From contig CAJNOJ010000434.1 of NCBI GenBank assembly GCA_905250025.1, positions 1-64,000 of the forward strand: DNA of 64,000 nucleotides. The letters run 5' to 3'. Each line of letters begins with the position of its first letter. The first letter of the stretch is position 1. The DNA is from Adineta ricciae (Eukaryota; Rotifera; Eurotatoria; Adinetida; Adinetidae). The notes below the pieces were generated by a model, which saw nothing but the letters and a program-made list of their open reading frames with translations, was not told the origin of the DNA and did no database searches. The position numbers were made by a program, and so were the translations under genes. This document shows, in pieces, positions 17,783 to 64,000 of the stretch.

Positions 17783-19359
17783 ATGAAATGTTCCAAACGT
17801 TCAAACATGTTTTCTAATATTGTCAAACGCTTTTCTTCTACTCTACGCCAATGTCGATTCTCGTCATCATTTTCAACGAAATTTTCCTATCGACAACAAT
17901 TGGTATCTGATTTATCGAACGCAAATCTCGTAGATACACCGGTATCTCTTCATGGTTGGTTACAATATCGCCGTTTGAATTCTTTCGGTGTGCTTCGTGA
18001 CCATTCGGGTTCGATACAATTTATACTTCCGCCAACAATGAAACAAGAACGACAAACATTAAAACAAACACCTGTTGAATCTTGTGTACATATCAAAGGA
18101 ATATTGAAGAAACGTCCGGACGAAGATATCAATTCTGATGTATCATTAGGTCACATCGAAGTATGTGAGACTATTTTCGAACGAAAGTGAAACAAAACAA
18201 AATCGATTTTAGGTACATGTCACTGATTTTCAAGTGATTAATTCTTGTTTACCACAATTGCCCATTGATTTGTCAAAATATCACGAGTCTGATGAAAAAG
18301 CACGTTTAATTTATCGTTATTTAGACTTTCGTCGTGATGTCATGCAAGAACGGATTCGTTTTCGTTCGTCATTCATTGCGAAAGTTCGAGATTTTTTGTT
18401 AAAACACTCCTTTGTTGACATTGAAACTCCATCGTTATTTCGACGCACACCTGGTGGTGCACGAGAATTTTTAGTTCCGACGCATTTAGAACATGGAGGA
18501 TTATTTTATGCTTTGACACAAAGCCCACAGCAGTTTAAACAATTGTTAATGATGGGAGGTTTCGATCGATACTTTCAAATCGCCAAATGCTTTCGAGATG
18601 AATCAGGTAAGATTTTTTCTTGTCGTAGATAATTCTTTTTTTAAATTGATCTTTAGGACGTCGAGATCGTCAACCTGAATTCACCCAAATCGATTTAGAA
18701 TTAAGTTTTGTTTCTCGTGAAAATATCTTTTCATTAATTGAAGAACTTCTGGCACACAGTTGGCCTGATCGACTCGATAACATTCCATTTCCTCGTTTAA
18801 CTTACGCAGAATGTATGTCACGGTATGGAACAGACAAACCAGATACACGTTTTGCATTAGAAATTGAACATTCATCGGATAAACTCTCGATCACTAGTCC
18901 CCTTTCGTTAAACAATTTGCAAGATTTCCTGACTGGTAATATTCAATATGACGAAAAGACTCGACAATTTTCGATGAATAAAAGCAACAATGAAGAAGAT
19001 GATTTAATCAAAATGGGAGATTTTCGTTTGAAATTAGCTGATATACTGGAAAGTCAATATGATATGAAATTACGACAAAAACGTCAATGGAATTTTGTTT
19101 GGGTCACTGATTTCCCTTTATTTACACCGATGACAGACGATCGTACGAAATTCGAATCAACTCATCATCCATTTACTGCACCTGTTGATGAGCATTTATC
19201 GTTGTTATCATCCAAAAAAGATTGGTCACGCATTACTGGTCAACATTATGACCTTGTTTTGAATGGTTTTGAAGTCGGTGGTGGTTCAATTCGAATTCAC
19301 AATTCGAAACTACAACGTTTCATTCTCAAGGATGTTCTTCATCTACCTGTTGAACATTT
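17783..19359 (+). CDS. DARS2: Mitochondrial aspartyl-tRNA synthetase, copy 1, cut off at its 3' end
   Basis: Three exons (17783-18160, about 18213-18606, about 18657-19359). The N terminus is rich in Ser/Arg/Lys without acids, as in a mitochondrial presequence; an internal Met at 17807 is an alternative start. The anticodon-binding OB fold contains SLHGWLQYRRL, and class II motif 2 shows FRDES then RDRQPEFTQIDLE. The enzyme charges tRNA-Asp (bacterial-type family) in mitochondria. The frame breaks at the N at 19360 after VLHLPVEH, before motif 3 (GLDRLL), so this copy as assembled lacks about 80 residues. Upstream it matches 31443-33019 with few changes. The truncation is probably an assembly join and not a biological one. 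Confidence 0.88.
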
Positions 19360-19360
19360 N
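19360..19360. other. Single-N join: DARS2 copy 1 to start of locus copy 2
   Basis: Left of the N is the DARS2 coding region. Right of it is the sequence that also opens locus copy 1 at 12393. Confidence 0.8.
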
Positions 19361-19549
19361 TAGTATGTAGTGTGAATAGTTGTTGTTCTAAAAAGATTTT
19401 AAAATTGACGACTTTCTGTCTGATAGCAGCTTATCTAATTAAATGTTATTTTACTTTTGAGCTGAACTTAATCAAACATCACCTATATCTTTTTGCAAAC
19501 TGAAAGAAAAAAAATCTAAGGCGTGATAGACAATGCTTTACCTTGTCAT

Positions 19550-31442: not shown

Positions 31443-33246
31443 ATGAAATATTCCAAATGTTCAAGCATGTTTTCTAATCTTGTTAAACGCTTTCCTTCTA
31501 CTCTACGTCAATGTCGATTTTCGTCATCATTTTCAACGAAATTTTCCTATCGACAACAATTAGTATCTGACTTATCGAACGCAAATCTCGTAGATACACC
31601 GGTATCTCTTCATGGTTGGTTACAATATCGCCGTTTGAATTCTTTCGGTGTTCTTCGTGATCATTCGGGTTCGATACAATTTATTCTTCCATCAACAATG
31701 AAACAAGAACGACAAACATTAAAACAAACACCTGTTGAATCTTGTGTACATATCAAAGGAATATTGAAGAAACGTCCGGACAAAGATATCAATTCCGATG
31801 TATCATTAGGTCACATCGAAGTATGTGAGACTATTTTTGAACAGAACTGAAACAAAAAAAAATCGATTTTAGGTACATGTCACTGATTTCCAAGTGATAA
31901 ATTCTTGTTTACCACAATTACCCATTGATTTATCAAAATATCATGAGTCCGATGAAAAAGCACGTTTAATTTATCGCTATTTAGACTTTCGTCGTGATAT
32001 CATGCAAGAACGGATTCGTTTTCGTTCGTCATTCATTGCGAAAGTTCGAGATTTTTTGTTAAAACACTCCTTTGTTGACATTGAAACTCCATCGTTATTT
32101 CGCCGCACACCTGGTGGTGCACGGGAATTTTTAGTTCCGACGCATTTAGAACATGGAGGATTATTTTATGCTTTAACACAAAGCCCACAGCAGTTTAAAC
32201 AATTGTTAATGATGGGAGGCTTCGATCGATACTTTCAAATCGCCAAATGCTTTCGAGATGAATCAGGTAAGATTTTTTCTTGTCGTAGATAATTTTCTTT
32301 TTTTAACTGATATTTAGGACGTCGAGATCGTCAACCTGAATTCACTCAAATCGATTTAGAACTAAGTTTTGTTTCTCGTGAAAATATCTTTTCATTAATT
32401 GAAGAACTTCTGGCACACAGTTGGCCTGATCGACTCGGCAACATTCCATTTCCTCGTTTAACCTACGCAGAATGTATGTCACGGTATGGAACAGACAAAC
32501 CAGATACACGTTTTGCATTAGAAATTGAACATTCATCGGATAAAGTTTCGATCACTAGTCCCATTTCGTTAAATAATTTGCAAGATTTCTTGACTGATAA
32601 TATTCAATATGACGAAAAGACTCGACAATTTTCGGTGAATAAAAGCAACAATGAAGAAGACGATTTAATTAAAATGGGAAATTTTCGTTTGAAATTAGCT
32701 GATTTACTAGAAAGCCAATATGATATAAAATTACGACAAAAACGTCAATGGAATTTTGTTTGGATTACTGATTTCCCTTTATTTACACCGATGACAGAAG
32801 ATCGTACGAAATTCGAATCAACTCATCATCCATTTACTGCACCTGTTGATGAGCATTTATCGTTGTTATCATCCAAAAAAGATTGGTCACGCATTACTGG
32901 TCAACATTATGACCTTGTTTTGAATGGTTTTGAAGTCGGTGGTGGTTCAATTCGAATTCACAATTCGAAACTACAACGTTTCATTCTCAATGATGTTCTT
33001 CATCTACCTGTTGAACATTTAGAACATCTTCTAGAAGCTTTGGAATATGGTGCACCACCTCATGGTGGAATCGCTTTGGGATTAGATCGTTTACTTGCAT
33101 TAGTTTTAGAAACTGAACATATTCGAGATGTGATCGCATTTCCGAAAACAAGTCTAGGAAAAGATCTTATGTCTCAAGCACCAAGTGCAGTTGAACAATC
33201 AGAATTAGATTATTATTATCTAAAGATAAACAAAAAAATAGATTGA
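31443..33246 (+). CDS. DARS2: Mitochondrial aspartyl-tRNA synthetase, complete copy
   Basis: Exons 31443-31820, 31873-32266 and 32318-33246 add up to 566 residues in one frame. A presequence-like N terminus (MFSNLVKRFPSTL) precedes the OB-fold anticodon domain. Class II motif 2 is FRDES/RDRQPEFTQIDLE, and motif 3 is GIALGLDRLLALVL, which with the GAPPHGG stretch marks the bacterial/mitochondrial AspRS type. QNEFT-like substrate residues appear in FTQID. It attaches aspartate to mitochondrial tRNA-Asp. The Met at 31443 was chosen for the longest frame; the Met 24 bases further in is equally good as a targeting-peptide start. The tail LDYYYLKINKKID replaces the longer vertebrate tail. Divergent partner: LASP copy 2. 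Confidence 0.92.
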
Positions 33247-33336: not shown

Positions 33337-34153
33337 AGATTTGATCCAATTGGAGAGCTTCATCATAGCCTTTGATCCGACTTTTCTCAACTTCATTATT
33401 CAATGATTGAACATCAAGGTGAGCGAGTAATTATTTATAGGCTTTGTACAATTGTGTTAGACCTCGTAAGTTTAGGGCAATCCTATTGGTTTTCGTCACT
33501 TGACCATACGGCAGCTCTATAGCTGTTTTGTCACGCCGGCTATCACCAGCAGCCAGTTCATCCGGCGTGTACAACTGATAAATGTTGATTTTCAATATCT
33601 GCCAATGTATGAATGTCTGGTGAGATTCCACCATGCACACATGCATTATAGAGTGTTTTCAATTCATATTTCTTTTCACATTCGAGTTTGAACTGAAATG
33701 CCTTTGTTATTTGTCGTGTTTCGTGATTTCCGCGAAGAAGATTGATATTTGAGGATATTTGATCTTGAGAGCGAAGGGAAGAAACACACATTCACATTCG
33801 AACTGACCTCGATCGACATAATCACCTAAGAATAAATAACGAGTTTTCGTTGGATCCCCACCAGCGGCGAGGATTGTTAATAAATCATAGAATTGTCCAT
33901 GAATATCAGCAACGATGGTGACTGGTCGTTTGACTGTGAGAATGTTTGGTTCGCGTTCGAACACGGCTCGTGCCATTTCCACCAAGCGTAGCGCACATCT
34001 TTCATCCAAATGACCTTCTTGTTGTAAATGTTTTGTGAGTCGACTAATGGATGGCAAACCAGAAGATGAATCAAAAAGTTCCTGTTCAGTTAACAAAGTT
34101 GCACGAGGATATGGAATATCATGGATTTGACGATCAGGAGGAGGATTATCCAT
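33337..34153 (-). pseudogene. Calcineurin A pseudogene with several internal deletions
   Basis: Nearly identical to the functional gene at 35096-36541 but shortened. Retained: [44 protein letters not shown] and the tail NLRGLT. Missing blocks: about 60 bp around the FLCMHGG histidine, about 340 bp covering the region to the last metal histidine, about 170 bp with the intron and calcineurin-B-binding helix, and 36 bp of the calmodulin-binding region. A 1-bp deletion shifts frame near 33749 and stops appear near 33432. The catalytic core is destroyed. Lies between DARS2 and the intact calcineurin gene in the same orientation as the latter. Confidence 0.85.
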
Positions 34154-35095
34154 TGATGATTTAATCAGTGGAAAATATCGAAAATAGTGAGTAATAAAGT
34201 ACTCATAACCTATCGATGCATTGACTGTGATACTATAAAAAAACGTAAAACAATGACTAAGGTATATGCTTAGTCCCATGTCTACGAAGATTGTTTCGTT
34301 CGGTGTCGATAAATAAATTGGTTTTGTTGTTTACTATTTTGATCTTGGTAAAAAAAAACAGAAAAATACCCATGATTTTTTGTGTAGGTGATAAAAATGA
34401 GTGAAAAGGGAAGCGAATATGAAAGTATCCGATAACGTGTTTCTTCGGTATTGTTATGTCGAGCTACTATAATGCTAAGACAAAGACTGTTTGAAGTGGG
34501 TGCACAGCTCCTGAAACTTATTTTAAAGACGAATATAAATAAGACCTATTGATAATTGTCTTAATATCCAAATTTCTTCTAATGGCACAAGAAGGAATCG
34601 TACACACGATTTATGCGAGACATACGTGTTAGCTACTAACGTAAACTGATGTTGCTTCGAGAACGGACATATCAGGCGAGACTACATATTACTCTAAATG
34701 TTTTTGAGAACATTATTTATTTGCTCTGTTAACAAAACAAAACAATTTCGTTCCAAAGATACCATTTTATCGGTGTTTTTCTATTGACATCATGTTTGAT
34801 GACGTATATTTCCTTCGAAGACCGTATCATCGGGTGTTTCTATTACTTGGCTGGCAAAATACAGAAAAATGTGTGAGCCAGAATTCTTGTACGCTATTTC
34901 GCTGCTGAGAAACTGGAGCTACTCCAGATGCATTTTCTATCTCTGGTCCAACTCGATTTAATAACTTCTATGGACGATGATATTCAATATGATCGAAGAA
35001 CTGGATCGTTTTTAATAAATCAAAAAAATGAGAGTAAACATCAATTTCTATTTTATTGCTGAAATATTGACGAAGATAAATGAGTATTTTGTTCA
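34154..35095. other. Spacer between calcineurin pseudogene and gene
   Basis: No complete gene. A short plus-strand frame near 34966-35050 reads DDIQYDRRTGSFLINQKNE and resembles the DARS2 stretch DNIQYDEKTRQFSVNKSNN. It may be a very old DARS2 remnant. Otherwise nothing recognised. Confidence 0.35.
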
Positions 35096-36541
35096 CTAAG
35101 TAGATGGGCGTCGTTCAAATATTTGATCCAATTGGAGAGCTTGATCATAGTCTTTGATTCGACCTTTCTCAGCTTCATGTACTAACGCTTGAATATCCGG
35201 TCGAGCGAGTAATTCTTTATAGGCTTTGTACGACGGTGTTAGACCTCGTAAGTTCAGTGCGATCTTATTGGTTTTCTTCACTTGACCATACGCTTGTTCC
35301 ATTGCTTCAATCAATCGCTTCTTGTTCAACAGCTCTACAGCTGTTTTGTCACGACGACCATCATCAGCAGCCAGTTCATCCGGCGTGTACATGTTAAATA
35401 TTGACAACAGAAGCTGTGTCATGTAATACACCAGAAAACGTTCACCGAATTCAAAACCTAAAAATATCACATGACAATGATTGGATGATCATTTAGTAAA
35501 TTTACCGTTTTCGTAGTTGGGTAAAACAAAAGGATGACCATGTGCTTCGATGTGTACAACTGATAAATGTTGATTTTCACTGATTTTCAATATCGCTGCA
35601 ACATTATTGTACGTATCACAATAGTTTGGTGCAGAGAACAACGAAATCAGAACCGGAAAGTTTGTTCGAGACGACTTATGAAAAAGACGAACACCATTCT
35701 TCTGCACTTCGTGTCCACGAATGATTGACAGCAGATTATTGCGAAGTAAGAAATCACGACATGCATAGTATGAAAAGAAGTATGAACAACCACGAACATT
35801 GTTCGGCTTGAAGTTTTCTTCCTGTGCGTCGACATTATCAAATGTCTCACTTGGATCACACCATAACAAGTCACACAGTGGTCCTGAATTAGGCGTTTCT
35901 TTGAATCGATCAAGATTTTCGATATCTGCCAATGTGTGAATGTCTGGTGAGATTCCACCATGCATACATAGAAAACGTGAGTCAACCAGTGCACAAATAG
36001 GTAAAGCATCGAACGCATGCATACATGCATTATAGAGTGTTTTCGATTCATATTTCTTTTCACATTCGAGTTTGAACTGAAATGCTTTTGTCATTTGTCG
36101 TGTTTCGTGATTTCCTCGAAGAAGATTGATATTTTGAGGATATTTGATCTTGAGAGCGAAGAGAAGAAACACACATTCACATTCGAACTGACCTCGATCG
36201 ACATAATCACCTAAAAATAAATAACGAGTTTTCGTTGGATCCCCACCAGCGGCGAGAATTGTTAATAGATCATAGAATTGTCCATGAATATCAGCAACGA
36301 TGGTGACTGGTCGTTTGACTGTGAGAATGTTTGGTTCGCGTTCGAACACGGCTCGTGCCATTTCCACCAAGCGTAGCGCACATCTTTCATCCAAATGACC
36401 TTCTTGTTGTAAATGTTTTGTGAGTCGACTAATGGATGGCAAACCAGAAGATGAATCAAAAAGTTCCTGTTCAGATAACAAAGTTGCACGAGGATATGGA
36501 ATATCATGGATTTGACGATCAGGAGGAGGATTATCCATCAA
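35096..36541 (-). CDS. PPP3C-like: Calcineurin A (protein phosphatase 2B catalytic subunit)
   Basis: Two exons: about 35505-36541 and 35096-35461. Metal-site motifs are all present: DIHGQF, GDYVDRG, RGNHE, FLCMHGG and RGHE, with the calcineurin-type FSAPNYCDTYNN loop. The second exon starts in the calcineurin-B-binding helix (FLVYYMTQLLLSIFNMYTPD), followed by a basic stretch suited to calmodulin binding (LNKKRLIEAMEQAYGQVKK), then LNLRGLTP and an autoinhibitory-like segment (ALQLDQIFERRPST) at the extreme C terminus. The enzyme is a Ca2+/calmodulin-activated Ser/Thr phosphatase working with calcineurin B. About 465 residues, shorter than vertebrate forms because the tail ends right after the autoinhibitory element. 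Start: MMDNPPP; the second Met is the one shared with the pseudogene. Confidence 0.92.
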
Positions 36542-37178: not shown

Positions 37179-37487
37179 TTAACGTGAACGAATTAGTGCT
37201 GGAAATGCAATCGAATAAGGTGAATGAGATTGTTGAAAGAATCTTGCCCGTTTCTTCTGTTTTCCATCTCTATTAAACGATATTACATTTTCTTTATTGT
37301 AATAACCGTTCACTGGTGAATTTGATAAAAGATAATCAGAACCTATACCCAATTTTCGAAAAAACAGGGCAAATGATCGCTTTTGATCATGTTTTACCAT
37401 ATTTACCGGTATTGCGGAAAATGAATTGACTAAGTAAAAGAATATCACTATTAAAATTGTCAAATATAATCCAGTTTGTTTATACAT
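37179..37487 (-). CDS. Small secreted precursor, family member 1
   Basis: Single exon, 102 residues. Signal peptide: MYKQTG followed by a hydrophobic core (LYLTILIVIFFYLVNSFSA). A first conserved block follows (FRKLGIGSDYLL), then a variable Asn/Ser-rich spacer, a basic cluster KQKKR and a C-terminal block ending SPYSIAFPALIRSR. The same block closes the two neighbouring genes. The layout (signal peptide, spacer, basic cleavage site, short conserved C-terminal peptide) is that of a neuropeptide or peptide-hormone precursor; an antimicrobial peptide is an alternative because the end is cationic and amphipathic. I know of no named family with the IAFP core. An ATG 39 bases upstream is in frame, but the Met used gives a clean signal peptide. 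Confidence 0.7.
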   Translation of the reverse strand: MYKQTGLYLTILIVIFFYLVNSFSAIPVNMVKHDQKRSFALFFRKLGIGSDYLLSNSPVNGYYNKENVISFNRDGKQKKRARFFQQSHSPYSIAFPALIRSR

Positions 37488-37995
37488 GAGTTCAGTATAC
37501 GTTGGGGTGAGAATGCGTTTGCACATATACTATCAGTTGCTTTAAATACTATGTTGAACAATAAGAAATGTGAAGAGATAGAAAAAAAGAATCCAAAAGA
37601 TGAATGAAAGTAGATTTTGAGTATTTCCGTCGTCTGTCAAATGATTGAGTAAACTAAAAAAATCTAGTAATCATATTTTAATTTTCATTTTTTTTCAATT
37701 AGAACAGGAAGAAATAGAATTTTGTCAATGTGGGCGTTGTGGACTCGGTCGTATGCTTTTCGTGTTTTATTTTAGATATATTCTTTGAACTTGTTGTTCT
37801 CTCTGTAATCTATACCAACAATTCATTTATTGAACAAATTTCATTGACTATCAAACTGCTTTAGTCAATTTATGAGAAAATATAAGATACAATGATAAAT
37901 ATTTCATTTATTTATTTGTAATAAGCAGAAAAAGAAGAACAGAAATGCTGAATCTCGATGTCTCTACATAAGCATGACTACTGTTCTTGTTTAAT
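37488..37995. other. Upstream region of secreted-precursor gene 1
   Basis: Holds a TATTTAAA on the minus strand (37541-37548) and the shared 14-bp motif at 37626-37639. No coding pattern otherwise. Confidence 0.5.
37626..37639 (-). promoter_or_regulatory. Shared upstream motif of the secreted-precursor family (gene 1)
   Basis: Minus strand TGACAGACGACGGA. Its gene-side end is 139 bp above the start codon at 37487. The same motif at the same distance precedes gene 2 and a close version precedes gene 3. Confidence 0.6.
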
Positions 37996-38310
37996 TTATC
38001 GACGTGAACGAATTAAAGCAGGAAATGCAATAGCATATGGTGATTCAGATCCTTGGAAGAATTTGGCCCATTTTCTCTTCATAGCTCTTCGTTTTAGCAT
38101 AACAGCATGATTTTCGTGATCATCATCATTATTATTTCGATGATTTCCGGCAAGATAATCATGATCAATACCAAATCGTTCGAGTAAAGTTCCGACAGAT
38201 TGTTTGTCATCTTGTTCTTCTACATTTGTTGGTATTGCAGAAATGAAATTGAACAAAGCGAGACATGCGATCGTGAGTAACACTAAAGATGAACCAATTT
38301 TTGTGAACAT
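37996..38310 (-). CDS. Small secreted precursor, family member 2
   Basis: Single exon, 104 residues. Signal peptide with hydrophobic core (SLVLLTIACLALFNFISA), then the first conserved block (LLERFGIDHDYLAGN), an Asp/Asn/His-rich acidic spacer, the basic sites LKRR and MKRK, and the C-terminal block GSESPYAIAFPALIRSRR. Processing at the dibasic site would release a peptide of roughly 20-25 residues; the terminal RR could be trimmed by a carboxypeptidase. This is the clearest precursor of the three because dibasic sites lie on both sides of the conserved block. Function inferred only from architecture. Confidence 0.72.
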   Translation of the reverse strand: MFTKIGSSLVLLTIACLALFNFISAIPTNVEEQDDKQSVGTLLERFGIDHDYLAGNHRNNNDDDHENHAVMLKRRAMKRKWAKFFQGSESPYAIAFPALIRSRR

Positions 38311-39003
38311 TTTAAGTATTGAGATAGGTGTGATGTATGAAATGAATCAAATGCTAATGAACATTGGAGAAAAAGAAGGAATATAAATGTGAGGGAAGAC
38401 AGAGAGAGAGAAAGAGAAAATACGAGACTCAATTTATTTCAAAAAATTTCCGTCGGGTGTCAAAAGATAAAAAGACAACTAAAGATGAAGTACTCTAAAT
38501 AAAATTGGATGTGTATATGAGAGAAATGGTCTATCAACCAAATTATGCGTTGGTTTTTCTTCTACTGAATCTATTTTCGAATCGATTGTAAGGATTTTTT
38601 TGAAGCAGAAATAAAAACATTAATAAAAAATCAAATATGATGAATCAAACAGACAAGATTTTCGAGCGTGTCTCATTGTATAAGCACGATTAGCCATAAT
38701 ATGTTTGATTTCAGTGAAAACTTCCCATTGTTGGACACTCTCACGTCTCATTTCAAGGATTTCTAGATAAATCGATAGTTTACTTCATTGATAACCTTCA
38801 TCCAACGACACTTGTACTTTGAATGATGAAAAACGTTGAGGCGTTGGTGATAAATTTTGTCTGTTCAAGATGTTCTGAATGAGAATGGAAGTGAGACAAT
38901 TTTTCGAGACAACACAATTTAAATCGATTAATTTTATCAATTTGTATCTTATTTATTTGGAAAGAGAACGGAAAGAATTCTTAACAAACGAACTTTGTTA
39001 TGC
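38311..39003. other. Upstream region of secreted-precursor gene 2
   Basis: Contains TTTATAT on the minus strand (38391-38397), a GAGA run near 38401 and the shared motif at 38449-38462. No other gene seen. Confidence 0.5.
38449..38462 (-). promoter_or_regulatory. Shared upstream motif of the secreted-precursor family (gene 2)
   Basis: Minus strand TGACACCCGACGGA, again 139 bp above the start codon (38310), identical spacing to gene 1. Confidence 0.6.
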
Positions 39004-39354
39004 TTAGATATTGTTCTTCTTGATAGTCGATCGACGTGAACGTAAGAGGGAAGGAAATGCAATAGTATATTTTGGTTCAGATCTTGCAAATATATTGGCC
39101 AATTTCATTCTCAAACTTCGTTTTTCATAATTGTCTACATCATGATCATCATTATCTTCATTTTCAGCATCAACGTCTGATTGAGGGTGGACGACGAAAT
39201 AATCAGGAATAAAATCCAAATGTTCGGACAAAGCTGTATTAAATTGTTTTGGATTTTGTTTATCAACAATGATTGTTCGAGCAGAAATTGAAATAATTAA
39301 ATTGAGACAAATCATCACAAATAGAAACAAATATAAACCAAAGTATTTCGACAT
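39004..39354 (-). CDS. Small secreted precursor, family member 3
   Basis: Single exon, 116 residues. Signal peptide (YLFLFVMICLNLIISISA), the first block in diverged form (LSEHLDFIPDYF), a strongly acidic Asp/Glu/Asn spacer, cleavage site YEKR, then the C-terminal block with PKYTIAFPSLLRSRR followed by an extra tail (STIKKNNI). The most diverged of the three. It still keeps IAFP, L.RSR, the acidic spacer and the basic site, so these are probably under selection. The RSRR before the tail is a good furin-like site. Confidence 0.68.
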   Translation of the reverse strand: MSKYFGLYLFLFVMICLNLIISISARTIIVDKQNPKQFNTALSEHLDFIPDYFVVHPQSDVDAENEDNDDHDVDNYEKRSLRMKLANIFARSEPKYTIAFPSLLRSRRSTIKKNNI

Positions 39355-40639
39355 TGTTTATAAGAAATCAGCGTAGATCTCTAATGAAGAATAGGTTCAC
39401 TATTACTTCGTGATAAAATACCAAGAAATATTTACAAAGAAAGAAGACAATTGGTTTAAATATCCTCCGTCATCTGTCAGTTAAGAATAAGATAATGAGA
39501 ATATCCGAAGATACTTGAAAATTTTAATTTGATAAGAACCTCCGGCACATGTCGCAACAAATAAAAAAAAAGTACGTCGTAGGCGTTAAACAAAGTTCTT
39601 AGTAATTCTCTGGTTGATATTTATACAACTTTTACTGTCTGAAGTAGAAAATAATAGTTAATCTATTATAATACAAAAACGAGACGGTTTGTATTCCTTT
39701 CAGGTATGACAAGTGTTAATATGATAGGAAGAAATTAAATTTATATGTTTAATAGTCAGTAATATATGAATATACACTTGTCAAGAGAGAACGAATTTGT
39801 GGAAATTGAGTAGATTTTGATCAAAAACTTTCGTATTATTAAGATAATCATTATAGGGAGGAACTATGCAAATATTTGAAAAAATATTCCGATATTTCTT
39901 TTTTGATGAATCCCTTCTATTCAATTTATAGTTTATTTCACTTTATATAGATGGATCAGTATAGTTTTAGAAAATGTTGTGTTAATATTCATTGTCTAAA
40001 GAAATTGTAATGAATACATGTTTTATCAGTTCAATTACATGTGACACAAAAAATAAGTTTGTCCTACAAAGATATTGACTGAATAAGAAGGTTTCAAAAT
40101 TGCAATTTCGCGATTGAGTGAATAAATATCGAATTTATATGTAGAAGAAACGTTTTATTTCAAATAAAAAAAAGAACATTCAACGAAATTAATAAGAGCT
40201 TATGTCATGTTTATTAACAATTGACTTTACTTTAGTCACAAATCCCGTTTCGTACTAAAACATTAATTGTTTTATCATACTCATTAGTAGAATAGGTTTA
40301 CTGTGTTGGTTCTATTCCTATAAAATGCAAATAAAATCAATTAGAAATGAAATTAGAGATAAACTTAGTATGATTGATGATTACTACTTCTTTTTCAGTT
40401 ATTTTATTTCTTTAAGCAAATGGATATTTCAAAACTCAAGTGGAAATTGTCAGGAGAAAGAAAGATGAAAATATTTGTATTGTTAATAACAATAGACAGT
40501 CGAGAACATACGTCATAGTCAGGATAAAAATAGTCACGTTTTATGGAAATAATTTACTTTTCTGTTTCATACGGAATTGGGTACGTAGACAAGAGAAACA
40601 GTCTAATAGTGTCAGGTCTTTCACTATTGATGAATAATA
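39355..40639. other. Upstream region of secreted-precursor gene 3 and AT-rich spacer
   Basis: Holds the shared motif (39466-39479) and TATTTAAA on the minus strand (39455-39462). A weaker motif-like sequence is at 39542-39557 (CTCCGGCACATGTCGC on plus). The rest is AT-rich with no gene recognised. Confidence 0.45.
39466..39479 (-). promoter_or_regulatory. Shared upstream motif of the secreted-precursor family (gene 3)
   Basis: Minus strand TGACAGATGACGGA, 112 bp above the start codon (39354), immediately followed by a TATTTAAA. Confidence 0.55.
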
Positions 40640-42365: not shown

Positions 42366-42732
42366 TTAACGATGTGATGTCATATGACGCGTAAGATGAT
42401 GTCGTTCACGAAATGTCTCGCAGCAAATATGACAAGTAAGACTTGTTGATGAAGAAGAATTTGTAACTGTTTTTCGTGCTGTTGATAACTCTGGAGATAA
42501 CTGATGATAATGATGATGATGATGATGATGATTACGTCGTGTTGCATGATGAACACGAATATGATGAACTAATTCACTTGTTAAACGAAATTGTATGGAA
42601 CATTTTGCACACCAATTTGATGCATTGGCTAAAGCTGCAGTGGATGATGATTGAGATAGATAATGTATAGCCATTAACCAAGGATCAGCTGTTGATAAAG
42701 ATGTTGTTTTAGGTAAATGAGAAGTTTTCGAT
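42366..42732 (-). CDS. C-terminal zinc-finger exon resembling PRDM8/ZNF488
   Basis: Open from the N at 42733 to a stop at 42366. Two C2H2 fingers are seen: NWCAKCSIQFRLTSELVHH and LTCHICCETFRERHHLTRH, separated by a poly-His linker encoded by a GAT/ATG-like run. NWCAKC..FR.TS.LV.H and FRERHHL.RHMTSH are characteristic of the C-terminal fingers of PRDM8 and ZNF488. The preceding STADPWLMAIHYLSQ also fits that exon. These proteins are nuclear transcriptional repressors. The 5' part of the gene is missing because the sequence switches to RPL31 at the N. Only this exon is available. Confidence 0.65.
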
Positions 42733-42733
42733 N
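42733..42733. other. Single-N join: zinc-finger exon to RPL31
   Basis: The reading frame of RPL31 ends abruptly here after VRVPSFK, and a zinc-finger coding exon begins on the same strand. Confidence 0.75.
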
Positions 42734-43195
42734 CTTTAAATGAAGGTACTCGAACAAATGTAACTAATGTGTAGAGTTTGTTTGGTGAATCTTCATCTTC
42801 GTTACGTTGTCGAGCTAAACGAACTCGAACACGATAAGGAACATGACTGAAAAAAGAGATACGATGAAGTTCGATTCAATCAGAAAGAGAAACTTCAACG
42901 AACTTGATTCCTTGTGACCAAATTTCTTTGTTTAATTTCGAATCAATACGAACATCAGGTGTTTTCATCATTTTTTCGGCGAATTTTTTCAATTCTTTCA
43001 CTGCACGTGGTGCTCGTTTTTTGAAGGCACTATTAAACAGAGAATCTATCAATGAAAATCAATTGCAAATAATCGAACTCACACTCCGTGTAATCGTTTA
43101 TGCAAATTGACAGTGTATTCGCGAGTAACAACTTCATTTGTTATTTGTTTTTTGTTACTGCCGCCTTCATTTTTTTTACCTTTTGTATTGGCCAT
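42734..43195 (-). CDS. RPL31: 60S ribosomal protein L31 (eL31), lacking the last residues
   Basis: Three exons from ATG 43195. [12 protein letters not shown] then [18 protein letters not shown], after an intron [18 protein letters not shown] and [15 protein letters not shown], and a last exon [20 protein letters not shown] followed by [17 protein letters not shown]. This matches eukaryotic eL31 along its length, a component near the peptide exit of the large ribosomal subunit. About 10-15 C-terminal residues and the stop are missing because of the N at 42733. Otherwise intact. Confidence 0.92.
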
Positions 43196-47387: not shown

Positions 47388-49260
47388 ATGAGTAAGTTCA
47401 TCTTCATATCGAATTGCATTCATTTACGAAGAACATTCTAGTCACGATTGATGATGATACTGAAGATCTAAATCGAAATGCTCCTATTGAACTGATCAAT
47501 CTTGATGCGTCGATAACAACCGACGATACATCAACAAATCGTCGACGACGTTCATCATCGACGTCATCGCAAGAAACTGAAACATTACCAAGACCAATAA
47601 CGTCATCCAATAAGCGAATCAAAACTAAATTGAACGAAAGCGACGATGATAACGATGAAAAAGAAGATGCTTCGCGAACAATTATTCAAAATGATGCAGA
47701 AGTTTGTCCAATTTGTCTCGAAGAATGGACAAATTCTGGTCAACATCGTCTCGTCGCAACTGAATGTGGTCATCTATTTGGACGAATGTTCGTTTCTTTC
47801 CGAAAATCACATATAAAAGACTTCTCCTTCTTTTTTGCCTAATAGATGTATTGAAAAATGGCTCCGTACTTCGTCGAAATGTCCTCAATGTCAATCATCA
47901 GTGAAAAAGAAAGATCTGCGCCGAATTTATTGTCGAGCACTTCAAGTATTAGACACAAGTGAACGAGATAATGCTATTCGAGAAAGAGACTTAGAAAAAA
48001 AAGCAAGAAAAAAACTCGCGTACGAAAAAGCGGAATTACAATTAGCATACGATATCATCAAAGATCAATTAAAACGTTTACAAAACGAACACGATCGATT
48101 ATTAAAGTAGATACCTTCTTTTTCGAAGCACTTCGTTTTAGATTGATTTGTCTGTTTAGAATGACACAAGGTTTAACTAATCTCGGAGAAACCGCAGAAG
48201 AATCTTCGACAGATACAAATGTTGCTCCACCGCCACCACCTCCAATCAACATGCGATTAGAAACTGTTGTTAAAATACCAGAAGTAAATCGAAATCAAGA
48301 TCTTTTCTAAAATTCGAAACAACGACTTTTCTTCAGGGAATGTGTCGTGTTCTTGCCTATGCTCCATCCCATCAATGGCTTTTTGTCACTCAACCAACAA
48401 ATAATAGTTTATATCCAGGCTACGGAATCAAAAAGGTATAAAGATAAGTCAGGAATGAAATGATTTGATTTCTGTGTGCCGAAATAGATCAGTCTGATAG
48501 ATGGTGGTCGTGCGCCTGAATATACAACACTTCGTCATACGAAACCTATTCGTGATATTCAACTCCATGGTGATCTTCTACTATCTTGTGCCTGGGATAA
48601 AACAATGCGTTTATTCGATTATACAAGAAATACATTTAATCTTTTGTAAGCTGAACATCTTTTTCGGAATAATTTGACTTTCATCGGAAAATTTAGATGT
48701 GAATGTGCATCTCAAGTATGGAGTTGTGCTTGGAATCTTGATGATTCAAATATCATTTATGCTGGACTAAACAATGGTCGTGTTCAAGTTTTCGACCGAC
48801 GACAACTTCAAACAGGTGAAACAACATTATCATCAAGTGTTGAAACATTAAGTTTATCCACAACATCACCGATTGTTAGTTTACAATATATTCAACGAAG
48901 TGGCTCTTTTCAATCTAGTGGATTACTTGTTGGAAGTAATGATAAAAGTGGATTTTATGAACATGTTCCCAATAGTGAATATCGTTATCATGCTTTACCT
49001 ATCGACAGTAAATTTCATTAGTTGTTTTTTGTATGGGAGAAATGTATTCGTTTGTTTTTGGTAGAGAATTTATCTAGTCTTCATTATGATTCCACGACAA
49101 ATCGTCTATTAGCGTCATTTCGTCCTCCATCAAGTCCAGCTCGACATGAACTTTATGAATTAGTTACACGACCAGTTGAAGATTCGGATCAATCATTTAT
49201 TGTTTCTCTTCAATTAATTCAAACATTTATTGGTTCAAGTGTCAATATTGTTTTGTCTCG
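47388..49260 (+). CDS. RFWD3: E3 ubiquitin ligase RFWD3, 3' end missing
   Basis: The best start is ATG 47388: a 4-base coding exon (ATGA) with donor GTAAG, rejoined at the acceptor near 47450 to read MITIDDDTEDLNRN. A Ser/Thr/Asp-rich linker is followed by the RING finger CPICLEEWTNSGQHRL / ECGHLFG / CIEKWL / CPQC, then a coiled coil (DTSERDNAIRERDLEKKAR to LKRLQNEHDRLL) and WD40 repeats (TKPIRDIQLHGDLLLSCAWD; QVWSCAWNLDDSNIIYAG). This order and the RING wording match RFWD3, an RPA-associated ligase acting at stalled replication forks and in crosslink repair. The protein is cut by the N at 49261 in the last WD40 region, after SSVNIVLSR. Six or more short introns. Confidence 0.88.
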
Positions 49261-49261
49261 N
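49261..49261. other. Single-N join: RFWD3 to BLM copy A
   Basis: The RFWD3 WD40 region ends and the N-terminal region of a RecQ helicase begins. An apparent RFWD3-BLM fusion across this base is not to be trusted. Confidence 0.75.
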
Positions 49262-52212
<2,951 letters not shown>

Positions 52213-52683
52213 TCTTTTCATTCATATTTCTCTTCTGTGTAAATTGACAACGATTTTTTAATCTTATTTTTGATTTGTTCCATATATGTTAGAATATCTT
52301 TTTTTTTTTGTATTTGATTATTAAAATGAGAATAAATGAAATTTATTGATAGTTGATTTCAAATGAACATGAATATATGAATATCACCTCGATTCAGTCT
52401 ACATAGAAAAGATCTTTGTTTTTCTTATGATCTTTGTTTTCATCATGATTTAAGCACATTAGTTATTTCTTGTGATCGAGGTATTTCTAGGTAGTTTTGT
52501 ATATGAAAACAAAAGATTGAAGTATACATATGCGTCGATACTGCCTAAAGTACCTAATTTTATAGAGATAAACAAAGCGATAAAGATGATCGAAAGAAGC
52601 AGTAAAGAGAGAGAAAGAGAAAGATGCATGATCTTTATAAACGAAACATACATGTATACATTTCATAATCATTCTGTTTAGGC
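52213..52683. other. 3' flank of BLM copy A
   Basis: 52213-52360 recurs at 55757-55900 and is probably the BLM 3' untranslated region. The rest is AT-rich and without a gene until 52684. Confidence 0.5.
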
Positions 52684-53047
52684 ATGGAAAAGAAATCCAT
52701 CATCCAATCAATGGCTGAAGAATTCGATGGACCAAAAAGATTAAAAACTGCATTAGATTTTGTAAGTAAATGCAAATATGCTTCCCGATGAGTAGAAGAA
52801 AATTTATTTTACGTATTGTTTTATTTAATTTAGCACAAAAACTTAAACCATGTGCTGAATGGTCAACCTATCGATGAAGTTACTCATACAAATGGTCCTG
52901 GTCAGCTCATTGGTAAAGAAAAAAGACTGATTTATTTAAATTCACGTTTTCATTTAGATAATGCACAAACAAATGATTCATCTGTTCGTCGAAAATCTTC
53001 TTCAATCAACGCCTTCTTTGGATTAATTATCGTCATCATCGTTATCG
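52684..53047 (+). CDS. Small membrane protein, 5' part
   Basis: Exon 1 (52684-52761) MEKKSIIQSMAEEFDGPKRL.., intron, exon 2 from 52834 reading HKNLNHVLNGQPIDEVTHTN and SSINAFFGLIIVIIVI, cut at the N at 53048. The last 183 bases recur exactly at 55454-55636, where the frame continues to a stop. Joining the two gives a 130-residue protein with two hydrophobic segments near the C terminus. Family not recognised. Confidence 0.6.
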
Positions 53048-53048
53048 N
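53048..53048. other. Single-N join: small membrane gene to BLM copy B
   Basis: Sequence switches from the membrane-protein exon to BLM N-terminal coding sequence that is identical to copy A for about 160 bases. Confidence 0.8.
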
Positions 53049-55452
<2,404 letters not shown>

Positions 55453-55453
55453 N
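55453..55453. other. Single-N join: BLM copy B to small membrane gene
   Basis: The BLM winged-helix coding region ends here. The following 183 bases repeat 52865-53047 exactly. Confidence 0.8.
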
Positions 55454-55737
55454 AACCTATCGATGAAGTTACTCATACAAATGGTCCTGGTCAGCTCATT
55501 GGTAAAGAAAAAAGACTGATTTATTTAAATTCACGTTTTCATTTAGATAATGCACAAACAAATGATTCATCTGTTCGTCGAAAATCTTCTTCAATCAACG
55601 CCTTCTTTGGATTAATTATCGTCATCATCGTTATCGTCGTCTACTTATGGATCAATGAATTAACATTGCGTCAAATGGTACCATTTATTGCTATTACGGC
55701 CTTCTCCTCGTTGTTTAGTATTTGGTGGAACAAATAG
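55454..55737 (+). CDS. Small membrane protein, 3' part
   Basis: Continues the frame of 52684-53047: PIDEVTHTNGPGQLIGKEKR, SSINAFFGLIIVIIVIVVYL, then a second hydrophobic stretch (MVPFIAITAFSSLFSIWW) and stop TAG at 55735-55737. Two close membrane segments at the C terminus suggest a hairpin or tail-anchored protein. Family not recognised. From 55730 the sequence merges with BLM 3' sequence (the shared string CAAATAGTAATTC), so the true 3' flank of this gene is uncertain. Confidence 0.6.
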
Positions 55738-56154: not shown

Positions 56155-56279
56155 TCCGAATTCCGTGAATTACTAACTCATGAGGAATTCATGAATCCTA
56201 TTTTTCTCAAACAATTACCTTCATTCATAGGATCTTTAACAACCTTACTCTTAAACGCAATCAAGCTATTTAACAAATC

Positions 56280-56940
56280 TGCTAAATCCAAGGAACTCAA
56301 AGAATCCAAGGAACCCAAAGAACCCAAGGAAGTCAAGGAACCCAAAGAACCCAAAGAACCCAAAGAATCCACGGAACTCAAAGAATCCAAGGAACCCGAA
56401 GAACCCAATGAAGTCAAAGAATCCAAGGAATCCAAGGAACCCAAGGAAGTCAAGGAACCCATAGAAGCCTAGGAAGTCAAGGAACCCCAAGAACCCAAGG
56501 AAGTCAAGGAACCCAAGGAACCGAAAGAATCCAAGGAACTCAAAGAATCCAAGGAACCCAAAGAACCCAAGGAACGCAAGGAACCCAACGAATCCAAGGA
56601 ACTCAAAGAATCCAAGGAACCCAAAGAACCCAAGGAAGTCAAGGAACCCAAGGAACCCAAAGAACCCAAGGAAGTCAAGGAACTCAAGGAACCCCAAGAA
56701 CCCAAGGAAGTCAAGGAACCCAAAGAATCCAACGAATCCAAGGAACTCAAAGAATCCAAGGAACCCAAAGAACCCAAGGAAGTCAAGGAACCCAAAGAAC
56801 CCAAAGAAGTCAAGGAACCCAAAGAACCCAAGGAATCCAAGGAACCCAAGGAAGTCAAAGAATCCAAGGAACCCAATGAAGTCAAAGAATCCAAGGAACC
56901 CAAAGAACCGAAGGAAGTCGAGAAACCCAGGGAAGCATCT
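56280..56940. repeat. 9-bp tandem array, left arm
   Basis: Units such as AAGGAACCC, AAAGAATCC and AAGGAAGTC are repeated over 70 times without a break. The open frames over it (KEPKESKE-like on plus, SLGSLDSL- and GFLGFL-like on minus) follow from the 9-bp period. Confidence 0.85.
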
Positions 56941-57539
56941 TGAGGGTGTGGCCTGAGGGTGTAGATTCCGATGGTGACGATGAGTGTGACTGAGGGTGTG
57001 GGATGAGGGTGAAGAGCCCGATGATGACGATGAGTCTGACTGAGGGTGTGGTATGAGACTGAAATTATGAGCATGTCGAAACTGTTCGTGGCTCGAAGGC
57101 CAACTGAATCATGTGGATAGCTCTAAAGGATCAATGCCTCGCAGGACATGAATATCGTTTACATGCTTATCACCATATTGAAGTACGACGTCCGTAATAG
57201 CATTTTAAGACGGCATTCTAATTTTTCGATTCATAGGACACGCGATTTGTTCTTTGTAAGACAAACATTGAGAGTCGACAAGCACAAACAGTTTATCCGT
57301 AGACGTGTGATTTTGGAAAAAAATATCGTGAGTGACAGTCATCTTGCCCCACCTTCGTGCAAAACGTATGAGTTTTTTTCTCACAGGCTCGTGAAACCTA
57401 ATTCCCCGTCTGAATCTGCAGCATTCATTTGCTCATTCGAATTCTTTTAACTGTTTATAGGCAGAATTTCTCGCAGACGATCACCTTCGTTCTAATTTTT
57501 GAAACACTTGTCGTTCTGTCGTATTCACCCATCCCATGC

Positions 57540-62213: not shown

Positions 62214-62596
62214 GATATTACGATCTTCTCGTGGTTGTTCGGCTTATGGTGCAACGGAACCTCTCAATGATTCGTATTTGGTGAGTGAAAATATATGGAT
62301 GGCATCCATTCCTTGACGTCTGATCACGTCCCATGTAAAAAAAACGCGAAAAATCTGATTTTAATCGACTTCTCATCGTCTTAAAATCAATTAAAATAAG
62401 GTTTTTTCATGCTGAAAAAATCGATGAGAAGCTAAGGTCATCGCCTAAATTTGCTTAATTATCGAGTTTAAGTATAGTTAAAGATGGCGCTGTAAAAAAT
62501 AACCATTAGTTCTTGTCTAACCTATACCGGCGATTATCAAAAACTTTCGTAAAACATGTTATAACTTATCAAAAATCGATATTTTAGATGTGAACG
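62214..62596. other. Unplaced sequence between XDH exon and BLM copy C
   Basis: Should contain upstream XDH exons if contiguous, but no ferredoxin-like frame (CGEGGCGAC type) is visible. The N at 62597 ends it. Nothing recognised. Confidence 0.45.
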
Positions 62597-62597
62597 N
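62597..62597. other. Single-N join: XDH flank to BLM copy C
   Basis: Coding sequence of the RecQ core starts immediately after the N, mid-exon. Confidence 0.8.

Positions 62598-64000
<1,403 letters not shown>

Follow-up and report, generated by a model that had tools for sequence, protein, structure and literature searches.

Described rotifer peptide precursors include those of the FCAP-related, FMRFamide and RYamide types (PMC6425005). Spiralian neuropeptide research is said to have covered Syndermata and other gnathiferans poorly, and very few precursors came from one study with three Rotaria species among its taxa (PMC8557429; papers cited by PubMed Central (PMC) number are represented here by part of their text). 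Here we describe three tandem genes, W1, W2 and W3, in a 64,000-nucleotide stretch of the bdelloid Adineta ricciae (contig CAJNOJ010000434.1, positions 1 to 64,000; hereafter the window). Their products have a signal-like N-terminus, a variable spacer and a conserved C-terminal peptide with the core Y.IAFPALIR. Sequence comparison suggests that this IAFP family is probably an undescribed bdelloid family of neuropeptide or hormone precursors.

Results

The three genes are uninterrupted reading frames on the minus strand, and the first-pass annotation of the window had called them intronless, which holds for the coding frames only. W1 (37179..37487) encodes 102 amino acids (aa) from the second ATG of its frame and 115 aa from an upstream ATG at 37526, W2 (37996..38310) encodes 104 aa, and W3 (39004..39354) encodes 116 aa. 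The signal-like N-termini end in NSFSA before IP in W1, NFISA before IP in W2 and ISISA before RT in W3. W1 ends with the block SPYSIAFPALIRSR and a stop codon and has no KR at the usual family site; W2 has an LKRR site and ends with the block SPYAIAFPALIRSRR and a stop codon; W3 has an EKR site and the block YTIAFPSLLRSRR, followed by the tail STIKKNNI. By the family alignment, the predicted mature-peptide block is AMKRKWAKFFQGSESPYAIAFPALIRS plus the terminal RR in W2 (37999..38085, minus strand) and SLRMKLANIFARSEPKYTIAFPSLLRS plus the RR site in W3 (39031..39117, minus strand), and the homologous block of W1 is GKQKKRARFFQQSHSPYSIAFPALIRSR, 28 residues long (37182..37265, minus strand). 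The previously noticed pattern Y[SAT]IAFP[AS]L[IL]RSR was found in all three.

Identity to W1 was 42% for W2 and 31% for W3. There are 24 columns invariant among the three proteins, 13 of them within the last 24 residues of W1. A search of the 130-megabase genome with the W2 protein recovered W1 (37182-37487, E 2e-16) and W3 (39031-39342, E 9e-9), and because these genome-wide matches and the profile matches given below are significant, the likeness of the three is not due to chance. Three further members were found in the same search (C6:887088-887303, C102:7879-8142 and C239:33911-34174). Queries with W3 and with a relative of another subtype returned the same six places, all remaining ones having E values of 0.25 or worse. 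A short degenerate IAFP pattern proved too loose for the genome (114+121 matches vs. 39+47 for the control); a longer core pattern gave 9+14 matches vs. 1+4, and these included W1-W3, C102 and C239 but not C6.

Profile searches of a protein database yielded 87, 96 and 101 proteins, which together form 106 clusters, one of them W3. The 87 proteins found with the three-sequence profile had E values of 6e-7 or better in a database of 5.8 billion, and no other match appeared up to E 10. The family thus has a sharp edge, within the sensitivity of a search that depends on shared words of five letters. An organism is named for 19 of the 106 clusters, and all 19 are bdelloid: 13 from Adineta (A. ricciae 3, A. 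vaga 4, A. steineri 6) and six from Rotaria (R. socialis, R. magnacalcarata, R. sp. Silwood1 and R. sp. Silwood2). Relatives in other rotifers, the absence of which had been named as grounds for rejecting the family, are thus present in A. vaga, A. steineri and several Rotaria. Restriction to bdelloids is provisional, as the searches had no positive control with another rotifer protein in monogononts or other phyla. On viral contigs, six stretches match IAFPALIR and none of them encodes a relative. The A. ricciae database protein P0076 is identical to the C239 frame. Two others, P0001 (91% identical to W2) and P0003 (87% identical to W1), are both assigned to a 10,761-base contig; the W2 search of this assembly found no second set matching them, and they may come from another strain or from an unassembled homologous copy.

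The predicted peptide and its boundaries were compared in 110 sequences (the 106 clusters plus W1, W2, C6 and C102). The core consensus, with few exceptions, is [YF]-x-I-A-F-P-[AS]-L-[ILM]-R-[ST]-R. Within it A, F, P and L occur in 110/110, the I, the R and the last R in 109/110 each, and Y in 103/110, with F instead in five. A KR lies upstream of the block in 97/110 sequences, about 18 residues before IAFP, and the span from this KR to R[ST] is 27 residues in 85/97 (26 in three, 28 in seven, 30 in two). The residue after KR is Gln in 63/97, which makes cyclisation to pyroglutamate possible. The predicted peptide has a median net charge of +4, and Cys occurs in or after the block in only two of the 110 sequences, both times in a long tail. 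The spacer before the cleavage site is acidic (median net three acidic residues in 20), and a crude window test detected an N-terminal hydrophobic run in 83/110. P0096 lacks the residues that separate KKKWA from IAFP elsewhere, which looks like an internal deletion in the predicted peptide.

Gene ends fall into RR plus a tail (83/110), R[ST]RR before the stop (13) and R[ST]R before the stop (nine); the other five are RTRQ or RTRK before the stop, RSRK or RSRW plus a tail, and RNSVTS before the stop. RR therefore follows the peptide in 96/110, with a single terminal R in nine. Ordinary prohormone maturation trims basic residues after cleavage, and if such trimming applied here, the three main end types (105/110) would yield one shared C-terminus, ...IR[ST]. 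Among the sequence evidence for the predicted processing, this convergence and the mostly constant length weigh most. Conserved basic sites of convertase type flank the conserved peptide in most of the family. In a clade of five around W1 (W1, P0003, P0004, A. vaga P0008 and P0012) there is no KR at the upstream site; P0008 has RR instead. The sites first proposed for the trio were EKR, MKR and KKR. The EKR of W3 is indeed the homologous site. In W2 the homologous site is LKRR, and the MKR lies within the K-[KR]-K-W block that belongs to the predicted peptide; the KKR of W1 likewise falls within a K-K-K-W block and is not the family site. Cleavage of W1 may take place at its own KKR or at some other position, or may not occur.

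Conservation was compared by segment in 11 hand-chosen pairs, some of which have a protein in common. Pooled identity was 84% in the mature block (260/310), 64% in the spacer (345/537), 56% in the signal (167/298, a figure lowered by records with differing annotated starts, e.g. P0030/P0062) and 60% in the tail. With the tail left aside, the peptide block was the best-kept segment in 9/11 pairs. Spacer identity ranged from 29% to 90%, so that the earlier description of spacers as completely different was too strong. A conserved mid block had also been proposed; it is partly kept (approximately FGRFGIDP.YLL), but only moderately, at 1.7-2.8 bits per column vs. 3.2-4.3 in the core (89 sequences).

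C102 and C239 were the only genome pair close enough for a sound comparison of nonsynonymous (dN) and synonymous (dS) divergence. Over the whole frame dN was 0.026 and dS 0.143 (6 nonsynonymous vs. 9 synonymous changes, Fisher p = 0.0017), and the last 30 codons held no nonsynonymous and two synonymous changes. This pair is under purifying selection. In the 28-codon block of W1 and W2, dN was 0.20 and dS 0.79.

A midpoint-rooted tree was built from 103 of the 110 rows and 109 columns, seven short, extended or internally deleted rows being excluded. W1, W2 and W3/C6 fall into separate groups, each with an A. vaga member. These A. vaga genes carry consecutive locus tags on one scaffold: I4U23_031163 groups with W2, _031164 with W3 and C6, and _031165 with W1. 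The tandem trio thus seems older than the split of the two species, their common ancestor seemingly having had it already. A group of 44 rows (support 99/95) unites members from A. vaga, A. steineri and A. ricciae (C102/C239) with four Rotaria proteins. Outside this group fall the W1-W3-type trio and two more Rotaria proteins. Since both genera occur inside and outside it, at least one duplication probably predates the split of Adineta and Rotaria, although a midpoint-rooted tree with so few columns for its rows calls for caution. Three A. steineri proteins (P0017, P0095 and P0101) are listed with the same longest contig of 567,468 bases, which suggests a cluster of members in that species as well. 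P0029 (W2-like) and P0098 (very divergent, W3-like) are each listed on a 2371-base contig; if it is one contig, they are perhaps another tandem pair.

Searches against known families identified no parent family. W1-W3 had no Pfam match, and 49 relatives searched up to E 1 gave 17 weak, scattered families, of which 16 each occurred in one member only; the best was ArsA_ATPase (E 0.0057, three members), and neither proSAAS nor 7B2 was among them. Single-member matches to IL2 (E 0.034) and Anophelin (E 0.48) were taken as chance. NCBIfam returned two matches for W1-W3, both far below the curated cut-offs. A bacteriocin match of W2 among these (E 0.084, 13 bits vs. a cut-off of 32) was rejected as chance. 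In PDB sequences the three-sequence profile had one match at E 1, and the 49-sequence profile and the peptide alone had none up to E 10. Rfam gave nothing in the window at gathering score. An AlphaFold model of W2 with 39 relatives placed helices at residues 2-24 (the signal), 36-45 and 64-87, with a mean predicted local distance difference test (pLDDT) of 62.9 and a predicted TM-score (pTM) of 0.26; the model has no confident fold, as would be expected of a prohormone. Within open-licence PMC text, supplements lying outside its scope, we found no description of the family and no occurrence of five core strings or of the A. vaga locus tags. A rotifer peptide of this kind was not found in the main text, as far as available, of PMC11258130, which concerns bdelloid responses to a fungus, and the available part of PMC10809525 held nothing relevant to the family. 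Unless described in literature beyond open-licence PMC text, the family is a new one within a known kind, the peptide precursors.

An upstream element accompanies the array. Exact matches to TTTGACANNNGACGGAAAT begin 154 nucleotides before the ATG of W1, counted from the 102-aa start (TTTGACAGACGACGGAAAT, 37623..37641, minus strand), and 154 nucleotides before the ATG of W2 (TTTGACACCCGACGGAAAT, 38446..38464, minus strand). A weaker copy (TGACAGATGACGGAGG, 39464..39479, minus strand) begins 125 nucleotides before the ATG of W3. The W1 and W2 elements agree at 17/19 positions vs. a mean of 7.9/19 over equal offsets; 17/19 was also attained by W2 and C239 at free offsets. Upstream of C102 there is a weaker copy and upstream of C239 a changed one. 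A 15-mer common to four promoters scored 51, equal to the top of 60 shuffles, and is borderline. In the genome the only exact matches to TTTGACANNNGACGGAAAT are those at W1 and W2, from which the pattern was derived. With up to two mismatches there are 258 matches vs. 68 for a reversed-pattern control, i.e. it is 3.8 times commoner, and no family relative was found within 500 nucleotides downstream of the 13 other places with at most one mismatch. The element may be a wider regulatory one.

Elsewhere in the window, two Metallophos (calcineurin-like phosphoesterase) frames adjoin the array on the minus strand (33707-34279 and 35489-36538); their N-terminal parts are nearly identical and the first is truncated. 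The minus-strand frame 42366-42875 opens on a stretch that Pfam matches weakly (E 1.1e-5) to the end of ribosomal protein L31e; what follows an undetermined base reads like zinc-finger sequence, which we presume it to be. Two very similar plus-strand genes (17783-19363, ending at undetermined bases, and 31443-33246) are presumably aspartyl-tRNA synthetases. Repeated gene pieces with their neighbours, separated by undetermined bases, lie on the plus strand at about 49218-55737 and at 62594-63543; we take them to be of a RecQ-like helicase, and their repetition may be an assembly problem. At 56266-57122 lies a repetitive stretch in which several frames of both strands are open (KEPKEPKE..., GTQGTQ..., FLGFLGF...).

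Discussion

The first-pass annotation proposed a lineage-specific family of secreted peptide precursors, and the bdelloid relatives and their shared architecture agree with this. It left the choice between signalling and defence open, and the conservation pattern favours signalling. The genes, their architecture and tandem order, the conservation pattern and the usually fixed length between sites are observed directly, as are convertase-type P-domains (13 exon-level matches over the cut-off) and 7B2 (three partial matches) in the genome. In mammals 7B2 is a helper of PC2, and with both P-domains and 7B2 encoded a regulated secretory pathway is plausible. We infer that W1-W3 are tandem members of a bdelloid prohormone family. 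Each precursor would carry a signal peptide, and a proprotein convertase would cut at the KR some 18 residues ahead of IAFP and again at the RR that follows IAFPALIR[ST]. The acidic spacer would be discarded and the leftover R or RR trimmed, giving one basic, Cys-free, non-amidated peptide of 27 residues, of the type (p)QLKKKWAKFYQGAQSPYTIAFPALIRT; where this peptide starts with Gln, the Gln could cyclise. The product would most likely be a neuropeptide or hormone that binds its receptor through the near-invariant C-terminal Y.IAFPALIR.

Several observations weigh against this interpretation. The hydrophobic-run test was failed by 27/110 sequences, 23 of them records of 98 aa or fewer with a late start, and 13/110 have no KR at the site, including the whole W1 clade. 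Two common hallmarks are missing, there being no C-terminal Gly for amidation and one peptide copy per precursor. The P-domain is not specific to convertases and was also found in one of 14 control genomes (an archaeon), and some exon-level P-domain and 7B2 matches contain stops. The C6 copy, with the core IAFPALLLSRR, has lost the near-invariant Arg and is possibly a decaying member. In W1/P0008 the signal (80%) is kept at least as well as the block (79%), as is the spacer (90% vs. 89%) in P0030/P0062. In C102/C239 the block does not change significantly more slowly than the remaining frame (0/68 vs. 6/162 nonsynonymous, p = 0.18). A dN/dS near one in the C-terminal block, which had been set down as contrary evidence, is not seen in C102/C239, but the 28-codon block of W2/W3 does give about equal values (dN 0.38, dS 0.37), and constraint is therefore not demonstrated for every paralogue pair.

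A linear cationic antimicrobial family, in which the basic, Trp-containing C-terminal peptide kills microbes, would account for the charge (median +4), the multiple copies and the tandem order. The C102 and C239 copies adjoin a gene that we take, from its sequence, to encode a peptidoglycan-recognition amidase, which would suit defence, as would the very weak bacteriocin match of W2 had it not been attributed to chance. In antimicrobial and toxin families, however, variation typically falls on the mature peptide, and the signal and pro-part are conserved. A constant peptide beside a drifting signal and spacer reverses that pattern; in the pooled comparison the block is the most conserved part, with residues invariant in 110/110, and no antimicrobial family appeared among the Pfam matches of W1-W3 and the 49 relatives. 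We accordingly regard a defence function as unlikely.

The products could also be secreted proteins that act uncut, e.g. as matrix, gland or egg-coat components whose C-terminus binds a partner. Processing is, after all, predicted, the mid block is partly conserved too, and the upstream KR is not universal. Such a protein would leave the fixed 27-residue spacing of basic sites (85/97) and the convergence of three gene-end types on one trimmed end (105/110) without explanation, and AlphaFold gave no folded domain; we consider this alternative doubtful. An endogenous proprotein-convertase inhibitor of the proSAAS or 7B2 kind appears very improbable. LIR[ST]RR resembles LLRVKR, the inhibitory motif of proSAAS, and the genome does encode 7B2. 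Neither granin family was matched by W1-W3 or by the 49 relatives in Pfam, though, an ending at R[ST]R, seen in nine of 110 sequences, would disrupt such a site, and the strongest conservation (Y.IAFPAL) lies upstream of LIR[ST]RR.

If the family does encode neuropeptide or hormone precursors, such constancy of the peptide in two genera of bdelloids suggests that the ligand and its receptor are of basic importance to these animals, and the synthetic peptide could serve directly in a search for the receptor. The tandem trio also shows an unchanged peptide core beside altered gene ends and, in one clade, loss of the cleavage site upstream of the peptide. We tentatively put forward, at somewhat less than an even chance, a hormone system invented by and confined to bdelloids, with a 27-residue, pyroglutamate-capped, non-amidated peptide, a near-unchangeable Y.IAFPALIR[ST] end, a duplication before Adineta and Rotaria, and a receptor of its own.

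Among known systems, linear cationic antimicrobial peptides are likewise short, basic and Trp-containing with tandem genes, but in the IAFP family the mature part is, when pooled, more conserved than the pre-pro part. ProSAAS and 7B2 are secreted precursors too and likewise have a conserved basic motif at the C-terminus, whereas the IAFP family has no such Pfam match and its conservation is centred on Y.IAFPAL. Rotaria FCAP-related and rotifer FMRFamide and RYamide precursors share with it their rotifer origin and basic cleavage sites; by description, the Rotaria FCAP-related precursors are set apart by 8-9 copies of an 11-residue peptide, in contrast to the single C-terminal peptide of about 27 residues here (PMC6425005). 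Closest are the single-copy neuropeptide and hormone precursors of spiralians, with a signal-like N-terminus, basic convertase-like sites, an acidic spacer, one short and strongly conserved peptide and no folded domain (PMC6425005, PMC8557429). From these the IAFP family differs in that the libraries searched contain no named family matching it in sequence, its named relatives so far are all bdelloid, and it lacks both an amidation Gly and repeats.

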